Of a stretch of DNA of 64,000 nt, positions 19,115 through 52,900 are shown one piece after another. Below the pieces are notes generated by a model that was not told the origin of the DNA, did not search any database, and saw only the letters and a list, made by a program, of their open reading frames with translations. The stretch spans positions 124,001-188,000 of the forward strand of contig CALIAU010000002.1 in NCBI GenBank assembly GCA_938045585.1. Reading direction: 5' to 3'. The translations under genes were made by a program, and so were the position numbers. The first letter of the stretch is position 1; each line of letters begins with the position of its first letter. Source of the stretch: an uncultured Saprospiraceae bacterium (GTDB taxonomy: Bacteria > Bacteroidota > Bacteroidia > Chitinophagales > Saprospiraceae).

Positions 19115-19741
19115 ATGGAATCAAAAGAAAAAGAAAATCTTATCCAACAAGCAACTTTCTTATTCATGAAATATGGCATCAAGAGTGTTAGTATGGATGA
19201 TATTTCTAAAGAATTAGGAATATCAAAGAAGACTCTCTATACCTACGTAGATAACAAGCGGGAGTTAGTTAAACTGATTACACTTAATATGATAGAAATG
19301 GAACAAGCTGTTTGCAATTCTATTAAAAAGGAAGCTACAAATGCTTTAGATGAAATGTTAAAAATTTCCAGACATATAATTCAATTTATTGGACTCATGA
19401 CTCCATCCTTCACTTATGACTTACAGAAGTATTATAAACAGTGTTGGATTCTGATTGAAGAAGAACACTTTAGCTTTATTGAAAGTATAGTAAAAGACAA
19501 TCTTATAGCTGGTATTAAAGAAAAAATGTATCGCAGTAACATTCACCCTGAAATAGCAGCAAAACTCTATATGGCTCAAGCCAAACTAATATCCGATGAA
19601 GATATTTTCCCTGGTAGTAAGTTTGAAAAAGTAGTCTTGTTTAAAGAAATGATTCTTGCACATCTACATGGAGTAGCAAGTGACAAGGGTTTAAAAATTT
19701 TAAAGAAAAATGAAAATAAATACGTACTTGATGCAAAGTAG
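19115..19741 (+). CDS. TetR family transcriptional regulator
   Basis: 208 residues. The N-terminal helix-turn-helix domain spans about 5-55, with FMKYGIKSVSMDDISKELGI and the recognition helix SKKTLYTYVDNKREL. The C-terminal all-helical half should bind an effector. It is the first gene of a tetR-tolC-MFP-RND cluster, the standard arrangement of a local repressor of an efflux pump. The 28-base inverted repeat just upstream is its probable operator. Its 3' end overlaps the TolC gene by 32 bases. Confidence 0.92.
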   Translation: MESKEKENLIQQATFLFMKYGIKSVSMDDISKELGISKKTLYTYVDNKRELVKLITLNMIEMEQAVCNSIKKEATNALDEMLKISRHIIQFIGLMTPSFTYDLQKYYKQCWILIEEEHFSFIESIVKDNLIAGIKEKMYRSNIHPEIAAKLYMAQAKLISDEDIFPGSKFEKVVLFKEMILAHLHGVASDKGLKILKKNENKYVLDAK

Positions 19742-21110
19742 ATACCTTCTTGTTCTCATTTGGCTATGCAGTTCCTCTTGCATTTTAGCTCAGACTAGTT
19801 TCAGTATTGAAGAAGCTATTGATTACGCATATAAGGAATCCGATATTATCAAATTAAATATGCTTGACATAAAAGAAGCGGAGGCAAATATTAATGAATT
19901 TGTCTCAATAGGACGACCCAAAGTAGATGGGAACATTAACTATCAATACAATTTCATTAAAAACAGATCAGTTGTTCAAGATTTTATAAGCCCCGCTGTA
20001 TATGGAGTATTATTTAATGAGGGCGTTTTAGAAGAAAGAGATTTAGGTCCTCCTGCTTCTAATGAAATTACATTTCAAACCAATAATGCTTTATCTATGG
20101 GCATAGAAGCCAGTTCATTATTATTTGACGGTTCTTATCTGCTTGCATTAAAAGGTGCCCGCACCTATAAAGATTTTATTGCAAAGAACGAAGGGATTAG
20201 CAAACAGGAAATTAGATCAGAAATAACGAAAGCCTATTTATCTGTTTTAATTGTAGATGAAAACATAAAAATTCTTGACAAGAATTTAAAAAACCTTCAG
20301 CAGATACATAAAGAAGCAAAGGCCTATTATGAAACAGGTTTTGTAGAATCCATTGATGTGTCTCGAATCGAATTGAGCCAAGCTAATATTGAAACAGAAA
20401 GAAAAAAATTAATTCAACTCCGTTCCTTAAATATGAACGTACTGAAATTTCAAATGAATTATCAAGAAGATGACCAGCTTGAGCTAAGCGATGACCTAGA
20501 AACAATGGTTGATCTGATTGATATCGAAAACATAGATCTGTTATCAGAGATTGATTACAACAATAGAGCAGAATATGATATTATTTTGGGTTCCCAAGAA
20601 CTTAATAAATTAGATCTAGAACGAATTGAAAAAGGTAAATACCCAACCCTTGTAGCGCGTGCTGGTCTTTCAGGTCTCGTGCAAAGAGATAATTTATTTA
20701 GTAATGATGAACCAGGTATCTTACCGGCAGCCTATGCAGCATTAGGATTAAATCTACCAATCTATGATGGTAACGAACGTAGTGCGCAGGCACAAAAAGG
20801 AAAAATAAAAATTGAAAAAGCTGAAATCGAACGTCAGCAATTTGAGAAATCCGTAGCACTGCAAGTAAACAATGCTAGAGCCCGTTTAATTAATGCGAAA
20901 GAAAATATTAAAAATGCTAAAACAACTTTAGCAATTATTGAAGATATCTACAAGAAAACAAATATTAAGTATAGTGAGGGTGTAGGTTCTAGTGTTGAAC
21001 TCACCCAAGCAGAATCACAGCTTTATCAAGAACAATCTAAATATATAAATGCTTTATATGATCTTATACTCGCCAAAACAGAATTGGAGATTGCTCTAGG
21101 AACACTTTAA
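19710..21110 (+). CDS. TolC family outer membrane channel of the RND pump
   Basis: 466 residues. The start at 19710 lies inside tetR. A second ATG at 19731 would give a shorter signal peptide; both keep the export signal (LLVLIWLCSSSCILAQ). The mature part has the two TolC repeats, seen as ITKAYLSVLIVDENIKILDK near 171-190 and KYSEGVGSSVELTQAESQLY near 420-440. It probably forms the outer membrane duct for the adaptor and RND protein encoded next. Confidence 0.92.
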   Translation: MKINTYLMQSRYLLVLIWLCSSSCILAQTSFSIEEAIDYAYKESDIIKLNMLDIKEAEANINEFVSIGRPKVDGNINYQYNFIKNRSVVQDFISPAVYGVLFNEGVLEERDLGPPASNEITFQTNNALSMGIEASSLLFDGSYLLALKGARTYKDFIAKNEGISKQEIRSEITKAYLSVLIVDENIKILDKNLKNLQQIHKEAKAYYETGFVESIDVSRIELSQANIETERKKLIQLRSLNMNVLKFQMNYQEDDQLELSDDLETMVDLIDIENIDLLSEIDYNNRAEYDIILGSQELNKLDLERIEKGKYPTLVARAGLSGLVQRDNLFSNDEPGILPAAYAALGLNLPIYDGNERSAQAQKGKIKIEKAEIERQQFEKSVALQVNNARARLINAKENIKNAKTTLAIIEDIYKKTNIKYSEGVGSSVELTQAESQLYQEQSKYINALYDLILAKTELEIALGTL

Positions 21111-21119
21111 AATAAAAAC

Positions 21120-22274
21120 ATGTCAATAAACTTTAGATGTATAACCGCTTTGCTATTCAGCTCTCTTCTGATATTTTCTTGCAAACCAAAAGAACCAACC
21201 GACTTGGAAGGTATGCGAAAATTGATGACTAAAAAGAAGAAAGAACTTTCTACACTCCAAAAAAGCGTAGATGACTTACAAGAAAAAATTACAGCCTTAG
21301 AGCCTGTTCGAGAAGTTAAAAAGGTACTTGTAAGTATAGATACTGTAAGCAGTGTAGAATTTAAGCAGTATAGTAATGTACAGGCTACTGTAGTCCCAGA
21401 TGATTTTGTAAATGCCAGTAGTGAAACAGGCGGAAGAATCATAAAACGTTATGCAAACGAAGGAGACTACGTCACACGCGGACAACTACTTGCTACAGTA
21501 GATATGCAAACCCTAGAAAAGCAATTGGACGAATTGGCCACAAGCTACTCTCTTGCAACCACTATATATGATAGACAAAAAAGACTCTGGGATCAGAACA
21601 TTGGTTCAGAATTACAATTCCTAGAGGCAAAAACAAAAAAAGAGAGTTTAGAAAAAACGAAAGCTACCCTAGAATCGCAATTAGTTAAGAAAAACATCTA
21701 TGCGCCTATCAGCGGAGTGGTAGATCAAGAATTTCTTCAAGAAGGTGAAATGTCGGCACCAGGTGTTCCTATTCTAAGAATTCTAAATACACGCAAGGTT
21801 AAAATTGTTGCAGACCTGCCAGAAAATTTTCTTGGCTCAGTTAAGAAAAACGATAAGGTAAGTGTTTTCTTTCCAGCTCTTGACAAAACAATAGAAAGTA
21901 GAATCATAATGATGGGTAGAACAATTGACCCTACGAATAGGACATTCAAAATTGAAGTTCAGGCGAACAATAGCAAAGGAGACCTCAAACCAAACCTCCT
22001 AGCTGAGGTCAACCTAAACAACTACACAAATGCAAATGCAATAACTGTAAGCTCAGAGCTTATTCAAGAAGATGTAAATGGTGCAAAATTTCTTTACACG
22101 GTAGGCAAGGATAGTAATGGCAATACGATTGCACAAAAACAACTTGTAGAAACTGGAGAAAGTTATGAAAACAACATAGAAGTGAACTCTGGCCTCAAGC
22201 TTGGTGACATTATAATTGTAGAAGGTGCACGCTCTGTAAGTTCAGGAAATATAATAGTAACCGAAACAAAGTAA
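21120..22274 (+). CDS. RND efflux periplasmic adaptor (lipoprotein)
   Basis: 384 residues. A lipoprotein signal ends at FSC (Cys near 21), so the adaptor is lipid-anchored like AcrA. A short coiled coil (LMTKKKKELSTLQKSVDDLQ) precedes the lipoyl half-motif GGRIIKRYANEGDYVTRGQL. A helical hairpin, the second lipoyl half (IYAPISGVVDQEFLQEGEMS) and beta-barrel domains follow. It bridges the RND permease and TolC. It starts nine bases after the TolC stop and ends four bases before the RND gene. Confidence 0.93.
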   Translation: MSINFRCITALLFSSLLIFSCKPKEPTDLEGMRKLMTKKKKELSTLQKSVDDLQEKITALEPVREVKKVLVSIDTVSSVEFKQYSNVQATVVPDDFVNASSETGGRIIKRYANEGDYVTRGQLLATVDMQTLEKQLDELATSYSLATTIYDRQKRLWDQNIGSELQFLEAKTKKESLEKTKATLESQLVKKNIYAPISGVVDQEFLQEGEMSAPGVPILRILNTRKVKIVADLPENFLGSVKKNDKVSVFFPALDKTIESRIIMMGRTIDPTNRTFKIEVQANNSKGDLKPNLLAEVNLNNYTNANAITVSSELIQEDVNGAKFLYTVGKDSNGNTIAQKQLVETGESYENNIEVNSGLKLGDIIIVEGARSVSSGNIIVTETK

Positions 22275-22278
22275 ACGC

Positions 22279-25200
22279 ATGAGCAAACTTAAAGACAACT
22301 TCAAAGAATTTAGCTTAAGTAGCTTTGCCGTTAATAATGCTACTAGTATTTTTCTAATTACATTCATGATACTTCTCTTTGGTTTACGCTCTTATAATAG
22401 CATGCCAAAGGAAATGTATCCAGATGCCTCTCTTCCTACTATTTATATTAATACACCCTACTTTGGAAATTCGGCTGTTGAAGTAGAAAATCTAATAACA
22501 CGACCACTAGAAAAAGAAATTGAGGCAATTAATGAAATTAAAAATGTCAAGTCCTCCTCTGTGCAAGATTTCTCTGTAATCATTGCAGAATTTGTAACTG
22601 ATGTTACCATGGAAGAAGCTGTGCGTAAGATAAAGGATGCTGTGGATAAGGCCAAAGGAGATTTACCCACAGATCTAGATCAGGATCCTGAGGTACTAGA
22701 AATAAAATTTACTGATTTCCCAGTAGTTACAGTGAATGTATCAGGCCCAATTAATCAAGACGAACTAAAGAAACATGCGGAGTATTTAGAAGATAAAATA
22801 GAAAGTCTTAGCGAGGTTTCAAATGTTGATATAAAGGGAGCACGTGAAAAGGAAGTAAAGATCAATGTGGATGTACTGAAAATGCAAAGTCTACAAGTTT
22901 CATTTCAAGATATTGAAAATGCAATCGGCTCAGAAAATATGACCATGTCTGCAGGCGAACTAATAAACAATGATTTCAGAAGAGCTGTGCGTATCGTAGG
23001 ACAGTTTGACAATCCTTCCGAAATAAAAGATGTCATAGTAAAGAGTGAAAATCAACGTGCAATATTTTTACGCGACATTGCTGATGTAGAATTTGGATGG
23101 CAAGAACGCACTAGTATCTCACGCGTAGATGGTTACCCTGTTATATCCTTAGAGGTAATTAAAAAGAAGGGACAAAACCTATTAACTGCAGCGGACAAAA
23201 TTGATGCAATTGTCAATGAGTCAAAAAAGGTCCTGCCGAAAGATTTGAGCATAACCCTATTTAACGACCTTTCTGTTCAGACTAGGAATAATGTAGATAA
23301 CTTGCTCAATAGTATCATTTCAGGAGTAATTCTTGTTGTGCTTGTCTTACTCTTTTTCCTGGGCCTAAGAAATGCATCCTTCGTTGGACTTGCAATACCA
23401 CTCTCAATGTTAATGGGTATACTTCTTCTAAGTATTACTGGTACAACGATGAATATAGTGGTTCTCTTCTCTTTAATAATTGCACTAGGGCTTCTTGTTG
23501 ACAATGCGATTGTAGTTGTAGAAAACATCTTTAGATACCGACAGAATGGCTATAATGGTGAAAAATCTGCAAAGGGAGGTGCTGGAGAAGTCGCAGTCCC
23601 TATCATCGCATCTACGCTCACCACACTTGCTGCCTTTGCTCCACTCGCTTTTTGGCCAGGCATCATGGGACAATTTATGCAGTACATGCCCATTACTCTG
23701 ATGTTAGTTCTGGGTTCTTCTTTGTTTGTAGCACTAGTTATTAATACCGTCTTTACTTCAAAATTCATGAAGCTGAAGGAAGGAAAAAGTAGTATAAAAT
23801 CCTTATCTATTTCCATTGTAATCATGCTTGTACTCGCAGCCATTGGACATGTAGCTGATATCCTCTGGTTGAGAAACATACTGGTGATAGTCAGCATACT
23901 CAGTTTGATAAATTTCTTCATATTCAGACCAGGCTCTGTTTTATTCCAGGGCAAACTTTTACCCAAATTAGAGGCCTTATACAATAAATTTATTCGCTGG
24001 GTACTTTCAGGAGTAAAACCCTTACTTGTATTTTTTGGAACTTTTGTATTACTCATATTAGCAGTGGCACTTCTTATAATGAATCCTCCCAAGGTGGATC
24101 TATTTCCGAAGGCAGACCCAACATATGCAAATGTATTTATGAGCCTACCTTTGGGCAAGGACATGGATGCTACTGACAGAGTTGCAAGAGAATTAGAAAA
24201 AAGAATCGAAACAGTGCTGGAAGGAAAAAGGCATATTGTAGAATCTGTTCTGACCCAGATTGGAGAAAATACTGCAGATCCAAATCAACCGCCAGAACCT
24301 GGCTTAACACCTAACAAGGCTAGAATTACAGTTACATTTGTTCAATATGATGAAAGAGGGGGCATTTCTACCTCTGAAATTTTATCTGATATACGTAAGG
24401 TCATTGGAGGATTACCTGGGGTATCTGTGTATGCAGATCAAGATGCCAGTGGCCCACCTTCAGGAAAACCAGTCAACCTTGAACTTAAGGGAGATAATCT
24501 TGATAGTCTAATAGTTGTCTCCAACAAGGTTATGAATTTTATGAACGACCTGAATATTCCAGGAGTAGACGAACTACAATCTGATGTAAAATTAGGAAAA
24601 CCAGAAATGAGTATTGCTATTGACAGGACGGCTGCAAGAAAATATGAATTGTCCACTTTTAGCATTGCCAATACACTACGTACTGCCCTATTTGGTAAAG
24701 AAGTTTCAAAGTATAAAGAAGGCGATGATGAATATCCAATCGTTGTGCGCATGTTAGAATCAGATCGAAATAACATTGATGACCTCATGGCGCAAAAAAT
24801 CACTTTTAGAAACCCTGCAAATGGTCGAATTGTACAGGTCCCAATTACTGCTGTAGCTGATCATTCATATTCTTCTACTTATAGTTCCATTAAAAGAAAA
24901 GATGGTGAACGAGTCATTACGATTTATTCCAATGTGCTAGAGAATTACAATGCCAACGAAATCGTTGCAGAATTTCAAGAAAAATTAACTGAATTTGATT
25001 TCCCTGAAAATGTAAGCTACGCCTTTACAGGCGAGCAGCAACAACAAGCAGAAGACATGGCCTTTCTATCCAATGCCTTTCTAGTAGCTATCTTCTTTAT
25101 TTTTATAATTCTTGTTGCTCAATTTAATTCCTTTATAAGTCCGTTTATAATTATCATTTCTATCCTCTTCAGTACAATAGGAGTATTCTTAGGCTATGTT

Positions 25201-25683
25201 TTAACGGGAATGGATGTTTTTATTGTAATGAGTGGAATCGGCATCATTTCCTTAGCAGGAATAGTTGTGAATAACGCTATTGTGCTTATTGATTACATCA
25301 ATATTTTAATAGGCAATAGGAGAACAGAGAACAAATTAGATTCGATGATGGAAATGGATAAAGAAGAAATAAAAGAACTGATTATCCAAGGAGGTGCAAC
25401 TAGATTAAGACCTGTCCTCCTTACAGCATTTACAACTATACTTGGACTAATTCCCCTAGCCACAGGTTTCAACTTTAATTTTTTCACCTTTGTGAGTGAT
25501 CTAGATCCAAACTTCTTCCTAGGTGGAGATAATGCAAAAATATGGGGCCCCATGGCATGGACTGTAATATATGGTTTAAGTTTTGCAACATTCTTAACTT
25601 TGGTTGTCGTGCCAGTTATGTACTGGTTAGCATACAGAATAAAGTCCCTTGGATTTAAGTTAATAAGTAAGAAAACGGCTTAA
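22279..25683 (+). CDS. Efflux RND transporter permease
   Basis: 1134 residues, slightly longer than AcrB. Twelve membrane helices in two halves, with two large periplasmic loops, can be recognised. TM4 carries GLLVDNAIVVVEN: the first Asp of the AcrB DD pair is kept and the second is Asn. TM10 carries GIVVNNAIVLID, with Asn at the AcrB Lys940 position. Energy should still come from proton flow through the TM4 Asp, as in other RND proteins with a single Asp. The substrate is unknown. The stop codon shares one base with the pdxH start. Confidence 0.93.
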   Translation: MSKLKDNFKEFSLSSFAVNNATSIFLITFMILLFGLRSYNSMPKEMYPDASLPTIYINTPYFGNSAVEVENLITRPLEKEIEAINEIKNVKSSSVQDFSVIIAEFVTDVTMEEAVRKIKDAVDKAKGDLPTDLDQDPEVLEIKFTDFPVVTVNVSGPINQDELKKHAEYLEDKIESLSEVSNVDIKGAREKEVKINVDVLKMQSLQVSFQDIENAIGSENMTMSAGELINNDFRRAVRIVGQFDNPSEIKDVIVKSENQRAIFLRDIADVEFGWQERTSISRVDGYPVISLEVIKKKGQNLLTAADKIDAIVNESKKVLPKDLSITLFNDLSVQTRNNVDNLLNSIISGVILVVLVLLFFLGLRNASFVGLAIPLSMLMGILLLSITGTTMNIVVLFSLIIALGLLVDNAIVVVENIFRYRQNGYNGEKSAKGGAGEVAVPIIASTLTTLAAFAPLAFWPGIMGQFMQYMPITLMLVLGSSLFVALVINTVFTSKFMKLKEGKSSIKSLSISIVIMLVLAAIGHVADILWLRNILVIVSILSLINFFIFRPGSVLFQGKLLPKLEALYNKFIRWVLSGVKPLLVFFGTFVLLILAVALLIMNPPKVDLFPKADPTYANVFMSLPLGKDMDATDRVARELEKRIETVLEGKRHIVESVLTQIGENTADPNQPPEPGLTPNKARITVTFVQYDERGGISTSEILSDIRKVIGGLPGVSVYADQDASGPPSGKPVNLELKGDNLDSLIVVSNKVMNFMNDLNIPGVDELQSDVKLGKPEMSIAIDRTAARKYELSTFSIANTLRTALFGKEVSKYKEGDDEYPIVVRMLESDRNNIDDLMAQKITFRNPANGRIVQVPITAVADHSYSSTYSSIKRKDGERVITIYSNVLENYNANEIVAEFQEKLTEFDFPENVSYAFTGEQQQQAEDMAFLSNAFLVAIFFIFIILVAQFNSFISPFIIIISILFSTIGVFLGYVLTGMDVFIVMSGIGIISLAGIVVNNAIVLIDYINILIGNRRTENKLDSMMEMDKEEIKELIIQGGATRLRPVLLTAFTTILGLIPLATGFNFNFFTFVSDLDPNFFLGGDNAKIWGPMAWTVIYGLSFATFLTLVVVPVMYWLAYRIKSLGFKLISKKTA

Positions 25684-43547: not shown

Positions 43548-45443
43548 ATGAAATACGTAATCATTTTAATCGCAACACTAGGATTCCTAAATTCAAGCTT
43601 TGGAACTATATCAGAAAAATCTACAACTGTAACTGGATATGTCTACGACGAAACGGGTGTAGGAATAATTGGTGCAAATGTTTTGGTCAAAGGCACAACA
43701 ATTGGAACAATTACAGACATAGATGGAAAATTTTCACTGCAGGTTCCAGAACAATTCAAAGAAATTCAAGTAAGCTATACCGGCTACTCTAATGAAACTA
43801 TTCGCATTGATCATTCAAAAGCTGTGCATGAAGTAAAGATTAGCATGCAAGCAGGTGCACTCTTGGACGAAATCGTCATCTCACACGAGAGCTCAAAAGG
43901 CAAAAAAGAAAACAGAACTACTTGGCGCAAAAGAAGTCATCACAATACAAGAACAGACATGAAGCAAAGCTATTCGCCTCCTGCAGTAGAAGTAGATAGA
44001 TACAGGAATGAGCAGTATGGTGAAATACAAGAGAATCGTTTTATAAACCCGCTAACGGAAGAAGCCCTTTCCACCTTTTCTATTGATGTTGACAGAGCAA
44101 GTTACAGTAACGTACGTCGCATGATAGATAATGGTCAACTACCACCTAAGGATGCAGTTCGCATTGAAGAAATGATCAACTATTTTGACTACCAATATGC
44201 ACAACCAGAATCTAAGGACCCTATAGCATTAGAAAGCAATCTCATGAATTGCCCTTGGAATAACGAACACCAATTACTACACATTTCTTTACAAGGAAAA
44301 GACTTAGACACAAAAAATCTTCCTGCTTCCAATCTAGTATTTCTAGTGGATGTTTCTGGATCTATGCAAAGCGTAAAAAAGTTACCTCTGCTAAAATCAT
44401 CGTTTAAAATGCTGGTAAATAATTTAAGAGAAAAAGATAAGGTAGCTATAGTCACCTATGCAGGAAGAGCTGCTGTAGTTCTAGAATCTACCCAAGCAAG
44501 TGAAAAAGAGAAAATACTTAATGCTATAGATAATCTAAGAGCAGGAGGATCTACCGCAGGAGCAGAAGGTATACTGACGGCTTATAAGATTGCAAAGGAA
44601 CAGTTTATCAAGAAAGGTAACAACAGAGTCATCCTTGCAACAGATGGAGATTTTAATGTAGGTGTAAGTTCGGATGAGGGCTTAGAAAAATTAATTGAGG
44701 AGGAACGAAAGTCTGGCATTTTCCTATCTGTACTTGGATATGGTATGGGCAATTACAAAGATGAAAAAATGCAAATCCTTGCTGACAAAGGCAACGGCAA
44801 TCATGCGTATATAGACAATATTCAAGAGGCAAGAAAAGTCTTTGTAAACGAATTTGGAGGTACCTTATTTACCATTGCAAAGGATGTAAAAATTCAAATC
44901 GAATTTAATCCAGCCCATGTTGTAGCCTATCGTTTAATAGGTTATGAAAATAGACTACTGGCAAAAGAGGATTTTAATGATGACACAAAGGATGCAGGAG
45001 AAATGGGAAGTGGTCATGTTGTTACGGCTATCTACGAAATAGTACCCATAGGCTCTAAAAGTGCATACATTGGTTCTGTAGACCCATTGAAATATCAAGT
45101 ACAATCAAAACCAGCAAAGACAAGTTTTACGGGCGAACTAGCAACCGTGAAATTTAGATATAAAACTCCTGAAGGTAATAAAAGCAAAATGATAGAAAAC
45201 AAGATAAAGGCAAAAGCTCAAAAGATGTCAAGTGTCTCTGAAGATATTCGATTTTCTGTGGCAGTTGCAGAATTTGGGATGCTCTTACGGGATTCGGATT
45301 TTAAGGCGGACGCCTCCCTGGAAAATGTAATTACACTTGCAGAACAAGCAAAAGGGAAAGACAAAGAAGGCTATAGAAGTGAATTTATTCGCTTAGTAAA
45401 ATCTGTAAAAGAACTGCACGGTGAACTTGCAACTAGAGATTAG
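43548..45443 (+). CDS. YfbK-like von Willebrand factor A protein with carboxypeptidase-like module
   Basis: 631 residues. A signal peptide (IILIATLGFLNSSFG) precedes a carboxypeptidase-like regulatory module at about 27-110 (VTGYVYDETGVGIIGANVLV, ending GALLDEIVIS). The YfbK N-terminal domain follows (LSTFSIDVDRASYSNVRRMI), then a VWA domain at about 260-430 with the MIDAS motif DVSGS near 266 and ATDGDFNVG. A DUF3520-type C-terminal domain ends the protein. It is probably an outer-envelope protein that binds a partner through a metal-dependent adhesion site. YfbK homologues often sit beside ECF sigma genes, as here. Confidence 0.9.
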   Translation: MKYVIILIATLGFLNSSFGTISEKSTTVTGYVYDETGVGIIGANVLVKGTTIGTITDIDGKFSLQVPEQFKEIQVSYTGYSNETIRIDHSKAVHEVKISMQAGALLDEIVISHESSKGKKENRTTWRKRSHHNTRTDMKQSYSPPAVEVDRYRNEQYGEIQENRFINPLTEEALSTFSIDVDRASYSNVRRMIDNGQLPPKDAVRIEEMINYFDYQYAQPESKDPIALESNLMNCPWNNEHQLLHISLQGKDLDTKNLPASNLVFLVDVSGSMQSVKKLPLLKSSFKMLVNNLREKDKVAIVTYAGRAAVVLESTQASEKEKILNAIDNLRAGGSTAGAEGILTAYKIAKEQFIKKGNNRVILATDGDFNVGVSSDEGLEKLIEEERKSGIFLSVLGYGMGNYKDEKMQILADKGNGNHAYIDNIQEARKVFVNEFGGTLFTIAKDVKIQIEFNPAHVVAYRLIGYENRLLAKEDFNDDTKDAGEMGSGHVVTAIYEIVPIGSKSAYIGSVDPLKYQVQSKPAKTSFTGELATVKFRYKTPEGNKSKMIENKIKAKAQKMSSVSEDIRFSVAVAEFGMLLRDSDFKADASLENVITLAEQAKGKDKEGYRSEFIRLVKSVKELHGELATRD

Positions 45444-45747
45444 AATTAAAAAAAGGGCAGTTTTACTTCTATAAAACTGCCCCTTACTCCTCATTAGCTG
45501 AGCAATCATACAACTATAAAGTTTGATTACGTTTTTCAGCCATTCTTCTAAATAAATTACTTGTTGAAAACAGTGCTAGAATTCTTTAGAAGAAAATAGT
45601 CAATCGTCACTTAGTACAATGTAAAATTAGTCAATTGAAACACATTCAATATTTTAATATTGTAAAAAAGGACGAATGGATAAAAATTGATGAAAATGGG
45701 AAGAATGACTTGTAATATATAAGCCATTCTTCCCAATATTTGTTACA
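45444..45747. other. 304-base convergent intergenic region
   Basis: Contains the strong hairpin at 45455-45482 directly after the VWA stop, then ~260 AT-rich bases with no supported ORF or RNA gene before the TonB receptor stop. Confidence 0.6.
45448..45482 (-). terminator. Strong intrinsic terminator, T tract on the minus strand
   Basis: GGGCAGTTTTA (45455-45465) pairs perfectly over 11 bases with TAAAACTGCCC (45472-45482) around a six-base loop. The minus strand continues into TTTTTTTAATTC, so it should end the TonB receptor transcript 266 bases after its stop. The same hairpin lies 11 bases after the VWA stop and may work in both directions. Confidence 0.8.
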
Positions 45748-48624
45748 CTATTCAAAGGTATATCTAAATCCCATATAGGCATTTCTACCAAATAAAGGAG
45801 CCCATACTATGGATGCATCAAAGTACGCACCGAATGGATCATCATTTGAGATAATTGCATCTTTTTGCTTGTAGTTAAAAATATTTTCACTGCCAACATA
45901 AAGCTCAAAGTTTTTAAACACCTTGGTAATCTGCGTATTCCCAAGAATAAAACTTGGCGAATATTCATCTCTTCTAAATTCTATTGGATTATCACCTGTA
46001 AAGGGCAATCGCTTAGCACCCTGCCAATTTAAAGTAAGATCAAACAACCAACTCTCTTCCACCTCGTATGCAAGATTTATAAAGGCTCTGTGTTTAGATA
46101 AAAGTGGTTTTGCTAATCGTCCCGTTGCATAGTCTGTTTGCACATCAAAGATTCTGTAGGCTGCACGCAAATCAAAATTATCAAAGACCTCGTAGTCCAT
46201 CTTAATTTGAAAACTATTTGCATAAGAACTACCTTCCAAATTAGAAAAATGCACAGCACGTGCTGATCTATCCCAATCTACTACAATCTGGTTCTGAAAG
46301 TCTGTACGATACAGATCTAGACTAAAGCTTAACTCCCTTCCATCCACAATAAATGCTTGTATAAAATTAATACCGTAATTCCAAGCTACTTCAGCATCAA
46401 GACCATAGGGAGAATTACTCGTTTCATCTCCATGCACTACGATATTTCTAGCCGAACTAAATGCACCAATATTTTCAGAAAAAATGCTGGATGTTCTAAG
46501 ACCACGTCCAGCTGTAATTTTAAGAACAGACAACTCAGCAATATTATACCTTGCATGCAGACGTGGAGATAAAAACGCTCCATAGTTTGTATGATGATCT
46601 GCTCGGATTCCTCCTAAGAAAGCAAACTTGCCCTCATTTGAAAATGAATATTCAAAGTAGGCTCCTGGCACAGATTCCCTTCTGGTATAAAATCCGTTAA
46701 AAATGGTCTCTTCCAAGTTGTCAAATTGATAAGAAACACCTGTCTTATAAGAGTGATCAGGATTACCAATTATACTTTGGAAAATTACATTCGCATATGC
46801 AGATTTTTGAATTACATCAAAGGCTTTAAAACCAAATTCAGCATCTTGATCATGATAGAGACCACTTATCTGAATTCCTAAACTGGAGTTTGGATTACTT
46901 GGGAATACAATACCTGATTTCCACCATGCTTCATAGCGGTTTGTTTTCTGTCCAAAACGCCAGTGATTTTCATGCTCCTCACTCGTTCCATCAAAATGCT
47001 GTGCTACTCCTCCACTATGATTCAATCTACTCATCTTAGCACCTATCTGTCCTTCCCATCCGTTGTTTGCATACCATTTCCAACGATTCATCAGAATCAG
47101 ATCTTCTTCCAATGGCATGTCAGTAAAGCCGTCATCATTCCTATCATGTCCTTGACTGAGTTTTTTGCCATGCACTAATAAAGCTGTTGATATATGCTTA
47201 TTAAACTCCTTACGCGCATTGGCATTTAATTCCACTCTTCCTCCTCTATTTAAAAATCCATTTAAATGAAGGCGCTCCCCTGCATCTGGCTTTTTATTTT
47301 CAACATTTATCTGACCAGTGATACTTTCAAATCCATTCACAACAGAACCTACCCCCTTGTTCAGTTGTATACTCTCAATCCATGGACCAGGCGTATAGGC
47401 TAAACCATATATTGCAGCAGTTGCCCGCACATCTGGTATGAGCTCTCTTGTAATTTGCATGTAAGGACCTGCTAGACCTAACATTTGTATCTGCCGAGTG
47501 CCTGTTACTGCATCTGTAAATGATACATCTATGGAAGGATTCGTTTCAAAACTTTCTGAAAGATTACAGCAGGCTGCCTTTCTTAACTCGCCCTTACCAA
47601 TACTTTCGACATTGATAGGATTTATAAATGAAAGGGAGGATGTTTTCTTTCTATAAACAACCTCAACTGCGTCTAGAAATACACCATCCGAAAGAGTAAC
47701 ATCGATGTCTTGATCCCTATGTAAGGCTATATTAATGGTATCCGTTTGGTAACCGATATAACTAATCACTAACAAATTATTTTCATCCGTACGCTGCAAT
47801 TCAAAATTACCATCCAAATCAGTAGTCGCGCCTTTTCCGTCCTCAAGCCAATTTAGTGTTGCTCCTATTAGGGGAATAGGTTTTCCTTCACTGCTCATTC
47901 CTTCCACGTTTCCCCGCAAAAGATAATGATGTGCATTAGAATGTCCCTCTGCCCCATGCCCAGCTTCTGGGTCTATACGGTACTGACAACAGCCAGGCAA
48001 ATTATCATAGACTTCTGCTGAAGTTTTAAAGTCTCCATTATCATGACCAGCTAGTGCAATCGCTTTCTGGATATCTACCAGTTGTACCTGTTCTTCATCA
48101 AAAGCAACTGTCAGCATACCTGTCACATCATCCCATGAAGCCTTCTCTGCACCTGCTTCTTTGGCCGTTTCTTCAATGCGACTTTGACACATACCGCATA
48201 ATCCATAAACATGAAAACTTGCCTTACCATCAATAATCTCAATTTCAGAACTGCTATGTAACCCAGCATTTAAATCATCCTGTTCCTCTTGTTCTTCAGG
48301 ACGATACTGGCAACAGCCTGGTAATTCATCATAGACTGCATCCGGCGCAAGAAAGGCACCGTTATCATGCCCCGCTTGCGCAATGGCATAGCGAATATCT
48401 TCTAAGGGTATTTCCTTACCTGGAAATTCAACATAAAGAACACCGGTCGCATCATCCCATTCTGCAACTGTAGCTCCTGCTTTTTTTGCAGTCTCTTCTA
48501 TTCTACTATCACACATCCCACAGAGTCCAGATACTGGGAATTCTGCCGTATGTATTTCGGTCGTCTGTCCGATCAATGTGCTCTGCATAAAAGCAAGCAC
48601 ACAAATCACTATAAAATGTTTCAT
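45748..48624 (-). CDS. TonB-dependent receptor with two tandem heavy-metal-associated domains
   Basis: 958 residues with a signal peptide (FIVICVLAFMQSTLIGQ). Two HMA-like domains follow at about 25-105 and 130-215. Each has the LCGMC(D/Q)SRIEETAK metal motif and ends in LPGCCQYR, so the unit is duplicated. Next comes a carboxypeptidase-like module at 230-320, a TonB plug (KAACCNLSESFETNPSIDVS, GLAGPYMQIT) and a barrel ending MGFRYTFE. The HMA motif and Cys-rich plug point to copper or another soft metal. It probably imports or senses the metal across the outer membrane with TonB energy. The Cys-rich gene 52 bases upstream is likely cotranscribed. Confidence 0.9.
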   Translation of the reverse strand: MKHFIVICVLAFMQSTLIGQTTEIHTAEFPVSGLCGMCDSRIEETAKKAGATVAEWDDATGVLYVEFPGKEIPLEDIRYAIAQAGHDNGAFLAPDAVYDELPGCCQYRPEEQEEQDDLNAGLHSSSEIEIIDGKASFHVYGLCGMCQSRIEETAKEAGAEKASWDDVTGMLTVAFDEEQVQLVDIQKAIALAGHDNGDFKTSAEVYDNLPGCCQYRIDPEAGHGAEGHSNAHHYLLRGNVEGMSSEGKPIPLIGATLNWLEDGKGATTDLDGNFELQRTDENNLLVISYIGYQTDTINIALHRDQDIDVTLSDGVFLDAVEVVYRKKTSSLSFINPINVESIGKGELRKAACCNLSESFETNPSIDVSFTDAVTGTRQIQMLGLAGPYMQITRELIPDVRATAAIYGLAYTPGPWIESIQLNKGVGSVVNGFESITGQINVENKKPDAGERLHLNGFLNRGGRVELNANARKEFNKHISTALLVHGKKLSQGHDRNDDGFTDMPLEEDLILMNRWKWYANNGWEGQIGAKMSRLNHSGGVAQHFDGTSEEHENHWRFGQKTNRYEAWWKSGIVFPSNPNSSLGIQISGLYHDQDAEFGFKAFDVIQKSAYANVIFQSIIGNPDHSYKTGVSYQFDNLEETIFNGFYTRRESVPGAYFEYSFSNEGKFAFLGGIRADHHTNYGAFLSPRLHARYNIAELSVLKITAGRGLRTSSIFSENIGAFSSARNIVVHGDETSNSPYGLDAEVAWNYGINFIQAFIVDGRELSFSLDLYRTDFQNQIVVDWDRSARAVHFSNLEGSSYANSFQIKMDYEVFDNFDLRAAYRIFDVQTDYATGRLAKPLLSKHRAFINLAYEVEESWLFDLTLNWQGAKRLPFTGDNPIEFRRDEYSPSFILGNTQITKVFKNFELYVGSENIFNYKQKDAIISNDDPFGAYFDASIVWAPLFGRNAYMGFRYTFE

Positions 48625-48676
48625 TATATATATTATAAATTTATTTAATATGTTTTTTCAGTATTTAACTAACATA

Positions 48677-49009
48677 TTAAACCAGCCGAGGAGGCTGCCA
48701 CACACCATGTGTAAATCTATGCGAATAGGAATTATTATATTCAAATCCTCTATGCGCAGTAACTTCGTGAAATTTCAAATCAGCTTCTAGCTTACTCATT
48801 GTGTAAAAAGTATGACAACATACACAATGGCAATCATCTCCACAATGGTCATCTGAGCTTTCTTGATTGTCAGAACTAGTATCTGAGCAACTTATCGATA
48901 CCTCAGTACTACAACAGGATCCTCCACCTATAGACAATAACATAGGGGCAAATGCAAAGGCATTTTTAAGCATTAATAGACAAAATATGATTGCAAGACT
49001 CTGTTTCAC
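48677..49009 (-). CDS. Cys/His-rich exported protein, probable metal binder (DUF6660-like)
   Basis: 110 residues. A signal peptide of about 19 residues ends near NAFA. The mature chain holds clusters GGGSCCSTE and DDHCGDDCHCVCCH, then a C-terminal HRGFEYNNSYSHRFTHGVWQ followed by PPR, a tail I associate with DUF6660-type proteins found next to metal-linked TonB receptors. The nine or so Cys and many His residues suggest periplasmic copper or zinc binding. It lies directly upstream of the HMA-TonB receptor on the same strand and is likely the first gene of that operon. Confidence 0.8.
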   Translation of the reverse strand: MKQSLAIIFCLLMLKNAFAFAPMLLSIGGGSCCSTEVSISCSDTSSDNQESSDDHCGDDCHCVCCHTFYTMSKLEADLKFHEVTAHRGFEYNNSYSHRFTHGVWQPPRLV

Positions 49010-49170
49010 ACTATAAAGATATAGATTTTATGAATAGAAAAACCAAATAAGCTGTTAATACAAAGGTCTATTTGTCGCTCAAAGCCCCGTTTTTACTCAG
49101 TTCTATGGCCTTAAGCCGCTTTTATACATTAGAATTCGTTAAATAATAGCTGTAATTAGCTATATGTTCT

Positions 49171-49178
49171 TACTTTTG
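49171..49178 (+). promoter_or_regulatory. -7 box for the small Cys-rich lipoprotein
   Basis: TACTTTTG matches TAnnTTTG and lies 27 bases before the ATG. The same sequence is used before the bacilliredoxin gene. No clear -33 box. Confidence 0.5.
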
Positions 49179-49204
49179 CGCTTTATTAATCAAAAATACT
49201 AGTT

Positions 49205-49420
49205 ATGAAAAATCTATTATTAGTTATTGTGACTGCTCTATGCTTTGTATTAGCATCTTGTGGATCAAGTTGTGTTACTTGTGAGTCAGCTGGTACTGCA
49301 ACAGAAATTTGTGAAGACGATTACGAAGCATTAGCAACTGCTGATGGCATTGATCCAGATAGTGTATCTTTCGATCAATATATTGAAATTCTTGAAGCAT
49401 TCGGTGTTGAATGTAACTAA
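49205..49420 (+). CDS. Small Cys-rich lipoprotein
   Basis: 71 residues. A lipoprotein signal ends at LASC (Cys19), followed by GSSCVTC, a second CxxC-type cluster, then EICEDDYEAL and a final VEC. The pattern resembles short Bacteroidota lipoproteins with a C-C-ICEDD core and no known function. The gene has its own promoter and a strong terminator, so it is a stand-alone unit. It diverges from the putative copper operon, which makes a metal or thiol role possible but unproven. Confidence 0.8.
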   Translation: MKNLLLVIVTALCFVLASCGSSCVTCESAGTATEICEDDYEALATADGIDPDSVSFDQYIEILEAFGVECN

Positions 49421-49445
49421 TCAAAAGTCACGAAAGAAAAAAATT

Positions 49446-49476
49446 GCTTTGAGTTTTACTCAGGGCTTTTTTTTTT
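49446..49476 (+). terminator. Intrinsic terminator of the small lipoprotein gene
   Basis: GCTTTGAGT (49446-49454) pairs with ACTCAGGGC (49458-49466), with two G-U pairs and a three-base loop, followed by ten T residues. Confidence 0.9.
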
Positions 49477-49509
49477 GTCCTATAGCACTTGCTTTCTTTA
49501 TTTTTATTT

Positions 49510-49647
49510 GGGCATGCCCCTTTTCGAGTCAGGCTATGCAGGGGTTTCGCCTGCCTGCTTGCGGCACGTAGGTAGGCCCCTTTGCGGTGACAGCCTTCGG
49601 CTCCCTTCCTACCTGCTTTCCAAGGAACGCAGGCAGGTCCTGCATGC
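49510..49647 (+). repeat. GC-rich palindromic intergenic element (copy 3)
   Basis: Begins with the perfect palindrome GGGCATGCCC (49510-49519) and then CTTTTCGAG. CCTGCCTGC (49550-49558) and GCAGGCAGG (49629-49637) form a perfect nine-base inverted repeat spanning the element. The internal AGGTAGGC also pairs with GCCTGCCT. The head is shared with the elements at 41753 and 5684. Small ORFs in this stretch are repeat artefacts. Confidence 0.65.
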
Positions 49648-49935
49648 AAGCTAATATCTATACATTAAAAACAGATTAAGCGAAACTTAGTTTGTACCCG
49701 CAAAATCAACTTTGGCTCTTTATATAAGTAATGCATATACTTTAAGTCATAGCCATTTCCTCACCTACACAGTATTCATTTCTAAGATTCTCTACCCGTC
49801 TCCATTAAAAATGGCACACATATTGCATTTTCCTGCTATAGCAGAAGTACCTACACAATACTTTTGTTAGATATGCTCGAATTCCCCCCTACAGAAAGCA
49901 GATCGCAAAACGAATTTTTGGTTTAAATTTTACAC
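49648..49935. other. Upstream region of the giant secreted protein gene
   Basis: About 290 AT-rich bases with no ORF, RNA gene or clear promoter. The leader of the downstream gene probably starts here. Confidence 0.4.
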
Positions 49936-52900
49936 ATGAAACGACCGTTACACTTACACACGGTATTGTCGTTTTGTATCCTGCTATGTATCGCAACCAG
50001 CAGCCTACAATCACAATGCGTACTTTCTCTTAGCTGTCCTGGCGACACTACTATAATGTTAGACCCAGGCGTCTGTTCAATAATCTATGACTACGAAATT
50101 GTATCCTCTCAGATGGATTGCACACTTGACTCTTTGGAGCAAGTAGATGGTAGTGGATTGACTTCAGGAGATGTTTTCCCTATAGGAATTACTAATCAGT
50201 CTTATGTCTATTTTGACGAAAGTGGTGAAATTGCAGTTTGCGATTTTAATGTAGAAGTAATATCTACTTCCATTGACACATTGCTTACCATGACTTGCAA
50301 TGATGAGATTAATATTTCTGTCAATGGCTTATGTGAGGTACTTGTAACACCTGACATGATCTTAGAAGGCGAACACTCAGGTTGTTTCCCTCCAGAAAAT
50401 ATAGTAATAAAAACATTAAGCGGAACTGTTGTTTCAAATCCAGTAAGACTAGGATTAGACAACCAACCGACTTCTTATATCGTAGAAATAACGCATCCAG
50501 TAAGTAATTTAAAATGTTGGTCTCAGATCAACTTAGAAGATAAATCAGCTCCAGAAATAGATTGCGAATGCCCACCTGGAGAATGGATGCAGAATCCGGA
50601 TTGTAGAAAATTATGCACAGATATCGAAGACATAATTGATGGTACTATTGGAGTTCCTTTTGTAAATGATAACTGCAGACCTACACAGGCCCTTTTAAAT
50701 GACTTTGCGATCAATCCAGGCGAACTATGCGGTGAACATATCGTGACCCAATACTGGACAGTGCAATATCTAGATGGAGATAGTTCCATTGTGTCTAATG
50801 TAAATTGTGAAACAGAATTCTACATTGACAGAAGTCTTATCACAGATATTGTATGGCCATTAGATACGATCATTGATTGTTCACGTTCTGAAGAATTTAA
50901 TATTACACATCCTGATAGTACAGGCTATCCTACCCTGAATGGAGAAGACCTGCATGCTGGAAATATGCCTGAAAATTTATACTGCAATATTTCTATTACA
51001 TATACTGACTTAGAATTGCCAACCTGTGGTGACGATTGTGACCGTACTAAAAAAATAGTGCGTACATGGACTAAATTAGATTGGTGTACTTCAGAAGTAT
51101 TTGAACATGAACAGATAATTAAAATTACAGATACAGAAGCACCCTATATAGAAATTGATACTGTACAAACCTACTACGTAGACATCTGGGAATGCTATGC
51201 TGACATATGGTTTGACGATCCTATTATTCATGATAACTGCGATCCAAATCTTGACTGGTTTATACAGAGTACTAACTCTGGAGGAACACTGGTAGATGAA
51301 GATGGCCTTAATGTGTCATTAAAACCTAAAAAACACGTCCTCAAGGTCCCAAAAGGTGTATGGATATTTAAAGTTGGAAGTGTGGACTGTTGCGGCAACA
51401 CCACTATTGTGGATGTGGAAGTGCACGTGGTAGATGGAACACCACCTGTAATCGTTGCACTCGAATATATAAATGTAAGTCTTTCTACTAATCCTTTAGA
51501 TACAAATGTAATTGGAGGTGGTAAGCTGTTTACCGAATCTGTTGATAAGGGTAGTTATGATAATTGTAGTGCAGTACATATGGAGATAAGAAGAGATACC
51601 GATAATTGTGATATTGTAGGGAATGATACCTATAGTAATAGACTGCCAGAGTTTTGTGACCCTACCTATAACAATGATGATCTCGACAATGGAGAACAAG
51701 TCAAGTTTTGTTGTGAAGATTTAACTGCTGATGGAGATGGGGATGGTACACCTGATGGATTAGTTAAAGTATGGGCTAGAGTTTGGGACGATGCAAACAT
51801 GGATGGCTACTTTGGCTCGAGTAATTTCATTGATAATCCTGGCACTGATCATGACCAATGCGATATACTAGACAACTACAACGAGGTTTGGTTATGGGTT
51901 AAAGTAGAGGACAAATTAGGTCCTTTAGTGGACTGCCCTGCTGATATAACTATACAATGTGACATGGACCCAACTGATCTAAGTCTGACGGGTAAAGCAA
52001 CTGCTTATAGTGTATGTGAAGATCTAGAAGTAGAATATGAAGACGATGCGGACGTGCATTGTGGAGGAGGTACCATCTGGAGAAGATGGACCGCAGTAGG
52101 TACTCAAAATTCTTGTATACAAAAGATTACAGTAGAAGCAAGTCATCAATTTATTTTAGAGTGTGCTATTGATCCTATAACAATGGATAATCAAGCGACC
52201 GTCTTTTGCGATGACTATGAGATACCCGAGCCTATATATACTGTAGGTGCTTGCGATCTTGTGGGAGTCAGCTCTACCCTAGATACATTTTGGTTAGAAG
52301 AAGATGCCTGTTATAAGGTTATTAAAGAATGGATATTCTTAGACTGGTGTACTGGAGAATCAGATACATGTAACTTTGTTTTGTACAAGGCAGATGAATT
52401 TGCTCCTGAAATCATGTGTCAAGACACCTGTATTGGTTTGGATGATTTCTGGGATGTAGATAGTGACGGAATCACCTGCGAGTTTGCAAACAACCCTCAA
52501 ATTTCACTGATGGCTACAGATGCAGGTGACTGTGCAAGTGCATGGCTAAAATGGGAAATAGAGGTCGACTATTGGGGAGATGGAACAGTAGATAGAACCT
52601 ATAGTTCTAATCTAAATCCCAACGATGCAGACTACACTGCTCCAAGTTTGTCTGGTGAGTTAAAAACATTGACACTAGATAAAAACGAAGCTACTGCCGA
52701 GTGGGCACAACATAAATTAAAATGGAAAGTATTTGATGGCTGCGGTAACTTCTCTACTTGTAATCAAGTAGTGGAAGTAACAGATAAAAAAGCGCCAACA
52801 CCCTACTGTCGAGCATTGAGCACAGCAATTATGCATGCAGGGGCAGTTCCTACAGCAAGTATCTGGGCTGAAGACTTTAATCTTGGTTCATTTGATAATT

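Follow-up and report, generated by a model that had tools for sequence, protein, structure and literature searches.

The window (the whole 64,000-nucleotide stretch of DNA from an uncultured Saprospiraceae bacterium that was analyzed) encodes a TonB-dependent receptor with two HMA units at its N-terminus, and sequence comparison identifies this protein as a fused variant of a conserved gene pair, receptor plus chaperone; the fusion is real and recurrent.

The receptor and its two HMA units

The receptor ORF starts with ATG and occupies positions 45748..48624 of the minus strand, where the sequence-only reading had placed it; all features of the window receptor and its leader ORF given below are on the same strand. 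Its product of 958 amino acids, delineated by the ORF list, Pfam, a repeat alignment and an AlphaFold2 model, has the domain order HMA-HMA-CarbopepD_reg_2-plug-barrel. The putative signal peptide region (residues 1-20, 48565..48624) is a hydrophobic stretch recognized by eye, without a predictor. HMA unit 1 (residues 26-108, 48301..48549; repeat alignment and AlphaFold2) contains a CxxC motif at residues 35-38 (48511..48522) and a CCxY tail at residues 104-107 (48304..48315), both read from the sequence and from an alignment of non-redundant units. HMA unit 2 (residues 134-216, 47977..48225) was recognized by Pfam, the repeat alignment and a single-unit model; its CxxC (residues 143-146, 48187..48198) and the C, C and Y of its CCxY tail (residues 212-215, 47980..47991) are invariant in all 25 N-terminally fused receptors that were aligned, out of 26. 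The CarbopepD_reg_2 domain (residues 250-312, 47689..47877) is over the Pfam cut-off. The plug domain (residues 336-437, 47314..47619) is below the Pfam Plug cut-off in the window protein and over it in a relative (L083), and the beta-barrel, known from the AlphaFold2 model and Foldseek, spans about residues 450-958 (45751..47277). Thus, the earlier placement of the units at the N-terminus of the receptor is borne out by the ORF, by Pfam and by AlphaFold2.

The model of the whole receptor has a mean pLDDT of 77.6, and the order of strands and helices typical of HMA is seen twice, followed by the barrel; pLDDT falls below 50 over a large part of the plug, for instance at residues 350-357, where the Cys-Cys pair lies, and 363-405. 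Foldseek matched the model to FepA, Cir and BtuB, i.e., to proteins with the plug-plus-barrel fold, and a PDB sequence search with the receptor returned two short N-terminal matches and nothing else. By its modeled fold, the window protein is a TonB-dependent receptor, for which energized uptake is predicted.

In unit 1, LCGMC starts at residue 34 and CCQYR ends at residue 108; in unit 2, these positions are 142 and 216. The two 83-residue units are identical at 53 of 82 aligned residues (65%, and likewise 65% in DNA), and their alignment score of 274 compares to a maximum of 44 in 500 shuffles; the units are clearly homologous repeats as judged by this alignment. The duplication that had been claimed from the letters is therefore confirmed, whereas the description of the units as near-identical does not hold at 65%. 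Pfam HMA (PF00403) reports a single stretch over the cut-off, in unit 2 (28.2 bits versus 24.8), and none of its own for unit 1. An HMA fold with CxxC was found through an alignment of 98 non-redundant units, a single-unit model and a PDB match: the model built from the 98 sequences has a mean pLDDT of 95.7, and its best PDB match is to CopZ-type chaperones. The best PDB sequence matches of the window HMA pair are two HMA domains of zinc ATPases. Both the CxxC and the CC tail are present in 98/98 units, and CCxY in 83/98, in a set that was gathered with a profile built from those units and from which units shorter than 78 residues were dropped. The HMA units of relatives vary in sequence and number. 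In the unit tree, the two window units are closest to those of the one congener of the window organism, and the tree, with only 8 of 58 branches well supported, weakly suggests that unit duplications in other lineages are separate. Loci L021 and L010 encode stand-alone proteins in which an HMA domain of the GCPFC type is followed by one of the CC-tailed type.

Pairing and fusion in receptor loci

Relatives of the HMA-HMA region were found in 44 of 60 near genomes and in 139 of 392 genomes drawn from the phylum; relatives of the receptor were found in 50/60 (E up to 1e-50) and 122/392 (E up to 1e-60), respectively. We analyzed 161 receptor loci, namely the window and 160 of 173 other receptors, the 13 omitted being the lowest scoring of their lists. 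The HMA unit is fused to the receptor in 27 of these loci: there are 13 N-terminal double units, 13 N-terminal single units and one receptor (L083:3830-6562) with the unit at the C-terminus instead of the N-terminus. The architecture of the window protein thus recurs, with N-terminal fusion in 26/161 loci and in named public genomes. A separate HMA gene lies next to the receptor, defined as within 400 bp on the same strand, in 78/161 loci (scored as 28 upstream and 50 downstream; the upstream label is wrong for L185, where the HMA gene overlaps the downstream end of the receptor, and for L119, where it is due to an HMA-MauE gene and a unit is also present downstream). The earlier statement on separate occurrence holds in that the unit is often a protein of its own in Bacteroidota, and in these 78 loci the stand-alone gene adjoins an orthologous receptor. 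Altogether, an HMA partner is paired or fused in 105 loci, in 78 of them as a separate protein, and neither arrangement was scored in 56. We estimate that chance alone would bring HMA and receptor so close together in far fewer than 1% of similarly sized genomes. A stop codon was observed in the first of the two pieces in which the L208 receptor was matched.

In named genomes, the best 80 of 581 relatives comprise 33 single and 4 double fusions, 40 paired loci and 3 with neither, two of these three being cut by contig ends. It should be noted that these 80 loci were chosen by likeness to fused receptors, so that 77/80 paired or fused is not a frequency, and that the mislabeling caused by HMA-MauE genes applies to L273, L281, L283, L284 and L289 in this scoring. 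Fused receptors in named genomes include those of Sphingobacterium, Pinibacter, Segetibacter and Chryseobacterium.

A receptor tree was constructed with FastTree from 158 rows, the fragments L096, L207 and L208 having been dropped; 50 of its 155 inner branches are weak. HMA states are strongly clustered on this tree (28 changes versus 84 in shuffles), and the distinction between fused and unfused receptors needs 4 changes. N-terminally fused rows fall in three places: family f1, to which the window belongs, together with f2; families f20 and f22; and family f23. The window falls in a clade of 85 rows (local support 99), of which 82 are paired or fused; among the other three, L130 stops where its contig ends, and the sequence available upstream of L065 is about 0.6 kb long. 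Because 4 changes are needed on the receptor tree, we interpret the fusion as a recurrent event in an operon pair, and since the stand-alone HMA gene adjoins the orthologous receptor in 78/161 loci, fusion joins partners of the same operon. By this tree-based account, HMA and receptor were joined on more than one occasion, in one case at the C-terminus, which, like the N-terminus, lies on the periplasmic side of a TonB barrel.

The conserved residues of the receptor itself were counted over the same 158 rows, also without the three fragments. The vicinal Cys-Cys of the plug, C352-C353 (47566..47571), is kept in 158/158 receptors, including 54 without a linked HMA unit, and His485 of the barrel (47170..47172) in 152/158. 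We had considered the plug Cys-Cys as a mark of HMA-paired receptors, and this was ruled out by its presence in all 158; it marks the receptor family and not the pairing, because it is equally constant in the 54 receptors without linked HMA.

A leader-like ORF upstream of the receptor

A Cys-rich, probably exported ORF of 110 amino acids from GTG (48677..49009) is located 52 bp upstream of the receptor and has a CruR-like layout: a CHCVCC motif at residues 60-65 (48815..48832) and, three residues from the end, the Pro-Pro of a C-terminal WQPPRLV (residues 106-107, 48689..48694), both placed by a leader alignment. In 105/161 loci, an ORF upstream of the receptor and on its strand contains 4 or more Cys and has Pro-Pro within its final 25 residues, the upstream Cys-rich ORFs numbering 196 in all; this compares with 70 of the 960 Cys-rich ORFs elsewhere in these loci. 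Such leader-type ORFs accompany 81/105 paired or fused receptors and 24/56 of the others. The alignments omit ten of these 105 ORFs: five apparently spurious ones (L055, L089, L187, L192, L210) and five near-copies or picks at contig ends (L128, L130, L143, L147, L149). Among the WQPP-type leaders, Pro-Pro is exactly 3 residues from the end in 24/27, and the last Cys is 40-46 residues earlier in 25/27; the presence of Pro-Pro in the last 25 residues was the selection rule and its invariance in the alignment follows from selection, whereas its exact place three residues from the end does not.

The majority of the scanned ORFs of other types (60/68) match the NCBIfam family HYC_CC_PP (NF047658), a match that the window leader lacks. 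The window leader scores 19.9 bits against Pfam DUF2946, below the cut-off of 23.7, and 3/27 WQPP-type ORFs have a DUF2946 match at E up to 0.05. The window leader has WQPP, and not RAPP, near its C-terminus; the last Cys is 40-46 residues before Pro-Pro in 25/27 ORFs of this type, the distance from CXXC to the Pro-Pro motif in CruR being about 45 residues, and the Cys motif differs. By sequence, then, the window leader resembles CruR in layout, although it misses the DUF2946 cut-off. As a separate candidate, a conserved mRNA hairpin over the WQPP codons, seen in the window at 48697-48683, was rejected (mean z of -0.49 over 26 loci, 6 of them below -1.5). No Rfam match was found in 45000-50000 at gathering scores.

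Leader types and metal signatures

To relate leader types to metals, we used leaders away from this receptor: 40 regions were examined, and 31 chosen downstream genes were scanned, of which 26 encode pumps of the CusA/CzcA family and 5 encode other TonB receptors; two of the nine regions outside that scan also have pump genes. The Met triad of the pumps and the metal signatures of ATPases are general background that we applied to these sequences. In alignment with E. coli CusA, Met573, Met623 and Met672 are kept in 13/13 pumps behind HYC_CC_PP leaders, whereas none of the triad is present in 12/12 aligned pumps behind WQPP leaders (one pump being partial). Because of this difference (13/13 versus 0/12), HYC_CC_PP leaders go with copper-type pumps; by the same signatures, WQPP leaders go with a pump class other than copper-type, probably zinc-type. 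The two settings of the WQPP type differ in the leader itself: a CxP[FL]CxC core is present in 18/20 WQPP leaders away from this receptor and in 0/19 leaders aligned ahead of fused receptors, and CNPFxxC is present in 6/8 other receptor-linked rows. The OprC signature TIGR01778 is absent among the families shown for the 5 other TonB receptors behind WQPP leaders. Leaders thus head efflux as well as import operons, which may be compatible with either sign of regulation.

ATPases with a copper signature lie near the cassette in 3/161 loci (L108, L122 and L176). In the genome of the window, the copper P-type ATPase family was unmatched at E 1e-20 in a search that was positive in 14/14 control genomes, and no pump was over the CusA/CzcA cut-off. 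The window also contains an RND efflux operon at 19710-25683, with an outer membrane factor, an adaptor and an AcrB-type pump. On the Ornithobacterium plasmid pOR1 (L370:2814-7447), a WHPP-type leader ORF, another TonB receptor and a heavy-metal ATPase stand in a row; this receptor has no Cys-Cys in the plug, and the ATPase has no copper signature and ends with DVG, which we take to be a signature of zinc-type ATPases.

Other settings of the unit

The HMA unit was also found away from the receptor. In a Pontibacter plasmid cluster, it accompanies SCO, a four-helix copper protein and a Met-triad pump; in Parabacteroides distasonis (L365:2666-4291), an RND periplasmic adaptor carries a CC-tailed unit, fused at its C-terminus; in Ornithobacterium, the unit is within a DUF3347 protein; and on a Haliscomenobacter plasmid, a stand-alone unit adjoins a pump without the Met triad. 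A membrane protein, HMA-MauE (238-279 amino acids, with a CACLG motif), is encoded near the receptor in 9/241 loci (L119:6244-6978, L126:2884-3615, L116:2908-3624, L181:1827-2666, and L273, L281, L283, L284 and L289), and in 5 loci its gene overlaps the start of the receptor by 1-4 bp; it is a candidate inner-membrane partner of the receptor. The genome of the window has one HMA-MauE gene, away from the receptor (L001:937-1641).

A fixed metal-related neighborhood was not found: among the best 25 of 198 families, no Pfam family matches more than 3 of 134 neighbors in same-strand runs, these being one per sequence cluster out of 253, so that recurrence is understated. A response-regulator gene is located upstream in 6 loci of f23. 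A gene of cluster c19, which reads like a sigma factor, is present in 7/161 loci in mixed orientation; ahead of two fused receptors, L059 and L061, it belongs to the upstream run of genes on the same strand.

Discussion

Our preferred interpretation, which we hold to be somewhat better than even on the sequence record, is that the window protein draws on TonB to import a thiol-loving metal, copper being the likeliest, and has a periplasmic capture protein built in twice. The metal, free or chelated, would enter the barrel and pass the plug near the invariant Cys-Cys, after which the two HMA domains, tethered below the barrel, would take it up at their CxxC and CC sites and hold it for periplasmic users or for an inner-membrane carrier; the Cys-rich upstream ORF would be a metal-responsive leader of the CruR type that tunes the receptor. 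We infer this transport model with a strong genomic association behind it. Weighing against it are the 56 loci in which no adjoining HMA gene was scored, the WQPP type of the window leader, the Haliscomenobacter unit beside a pump that lacks the Met triad, the negative searches for a copper ATPase and a CusA/CzcA pump in the genome of the window, and the plug Cys-Cys, which does not track the HMA unit.

The choice of copper deserves a separate consideration. The sequence-only reading had named copper by motif, and this basis is weak because Cu(I) and Zn(II) are not distinguished by a CxxC motif; the suggestion of copper gains instead from the context of the relatives, i.e., from the copper-type ATPases (3/161) and the HYC_CC_PP leaders, and from the Pontibacter cluster in which the unit occurs. 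The same importer with zinc or another divalent metal as its ligand is rather unlikely in our assessment. The window leader belongs to the WQPP type, whose members away from this receptor precede pumps without the Met triad in all 12 aligned cases, the WQPP-type leader of pOR1 precedes a receptor and an ATPase with the presumably zinc-type ending, and the closest PDB sequences to the HMA pair come from zinc ATPases; however, the Cys core typical of the distant WQPP leaders is missing ahead of all 19 fused receptors, copper-type ATPases and HYC_CC_PP leaders accompany relatives of the cassette, and CC-rich thiol sites suit Cu(I). Considering these sequence associations together, copper is favored by the receptor family, and zinc is possible for the window.

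Other roles of the HMA pair can be envisaged for the same architecture. The receptor could belong to a metal-resistance regulon with the pair as a periplasmic sink and not as an uptake relay; the fusion of the unit to an RND adaptor in Parabacteroides, its occurrence in the DUF3347 protein of Ornithobacterium, the presence of the same leader types ahead of efflux operons, and the copper-type ATPases near three cassettes agree with such a detoxification role, which we nevertheless regard as quite improbable, given that TonB-dependent receptors are known as importers. A sensory role appears slightly less probable still: here, in the manner of the FecA N-terminal domain, metal binding in the periplasm would alter gating or pass a signal to a partner in the inner membrane, and the pair indeed occupies the position of the signaling domains in transducing TonB receptors, with response-regulator genes upstream in the f23 loci and the sigma-like c19 gene upstream of L059 and L061. 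These regulators are, however, not conserved partners (6 and 7 of 161 loci), and a domain that is free-standing in 78/105 loci and once C-terminal suits a carrier better than a signaling arm. Finally, the differences in sequence and number of the units between relatives might suggest a remnant or a scaffold that binds no metal in vivo; the retention of CxxC and the CC tail in every non-redundant unit makes this very hard to credit. The import of a metal, most likely copper, by a receptor with built-in capture domains is therefore the interpretation that we retain.

Among known systems, the closest in layout is CruR, a DUF2946 leader with CXXC and RAPP 45 residues apart and RAPP three residues from the end, which controls the TonB copper importer CrtA/BfrG of Bordetella pertussis in the cruR-crtA operon, according to passages of the two reports (PMC9426467, PMC12914433). 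In both cases, a TonB-dependent receptor is immediately preceded by a small exported Cys ORF that has Pro-Pro three residues from the end; a leader of the CruR kind would act by copper-controlled ribosome arrest and Rho termination. The differences are that the window leader misses the DUF2946 cut-off and carries WQPP where CruR has RAPP, that the published logo has no conserved Cys in CrtA orthologs, and that a fused HMA domain is unmentioned for CrtA in the published passages. The synteny section on CruR names proteobacteria and a few Planctomycetes, Firmicutes and Deinococcus, and not Bacteroidota; the text of the paper contains no word starting with “bacteroid” (PMC9426467).

With OprC, the copper TonB receptor of Pseudomonas, the window protein would share outer-membrane copper import, as proposed here; the 18 NCBIfam models that match the window protein at E up to 1 do not include TIGR01778, which would count as a difference only if the library contains this model. 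The unit shares its fold and CxxC with HMA chaperones of the MerP/CopZ type, of which MerP is periplasmic, and differs from them in an added C-terminal helix with the invariant CC; NCBIfam chaperone models match it far below the cut-off. HYC_CC_PP takes the leader position in many relatives, and a literature search under this name found nothing. A 2024 study of Bizionia assigns copper uptake to an OprC-like receptor and also lists several HMA proteins, with no mention of an HMA-receptor pairing in its passages (PMC11213822). Our literature search, with most subscription journals outside its coverage, found no description of a fusion between HMA and a TonB receptor.

A broader reading joins these elements, and we offer it tentatively, as a possibility to which we give less than even credence: Bacteroidota may have a widespread, undescribed relay in which a TonB receptor with a Cys-Cys plug would pass metal to a periplasmic HMA protein with a second CC site and, in some flavobacteria, on to the adjoining HMA-MauE protein of the inner membrane; the type of the arrest-peptide leader (HYC_CC_PP or WQPP) would mark the metal, and in the window the chaperone would have been duplicated and welded onto the receptor.

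Copper acquisition is termed poorly characterized in the abstract of the CrtA paper. Few copper-importing TonB receptors are named in the literature passages that we met, the sole Bacteroidota case among them being the OprC-like candidate of Bizionia. A receptor and chaperone pair with repeated natural fusions offers a concrete route, and it names which two proteins would exchange metal. With these leader ORFs, the CruR layout reaches a phylum that is unnamed in the text of the CruR paper, and the metal of an operon could become readable from the type of its leader.
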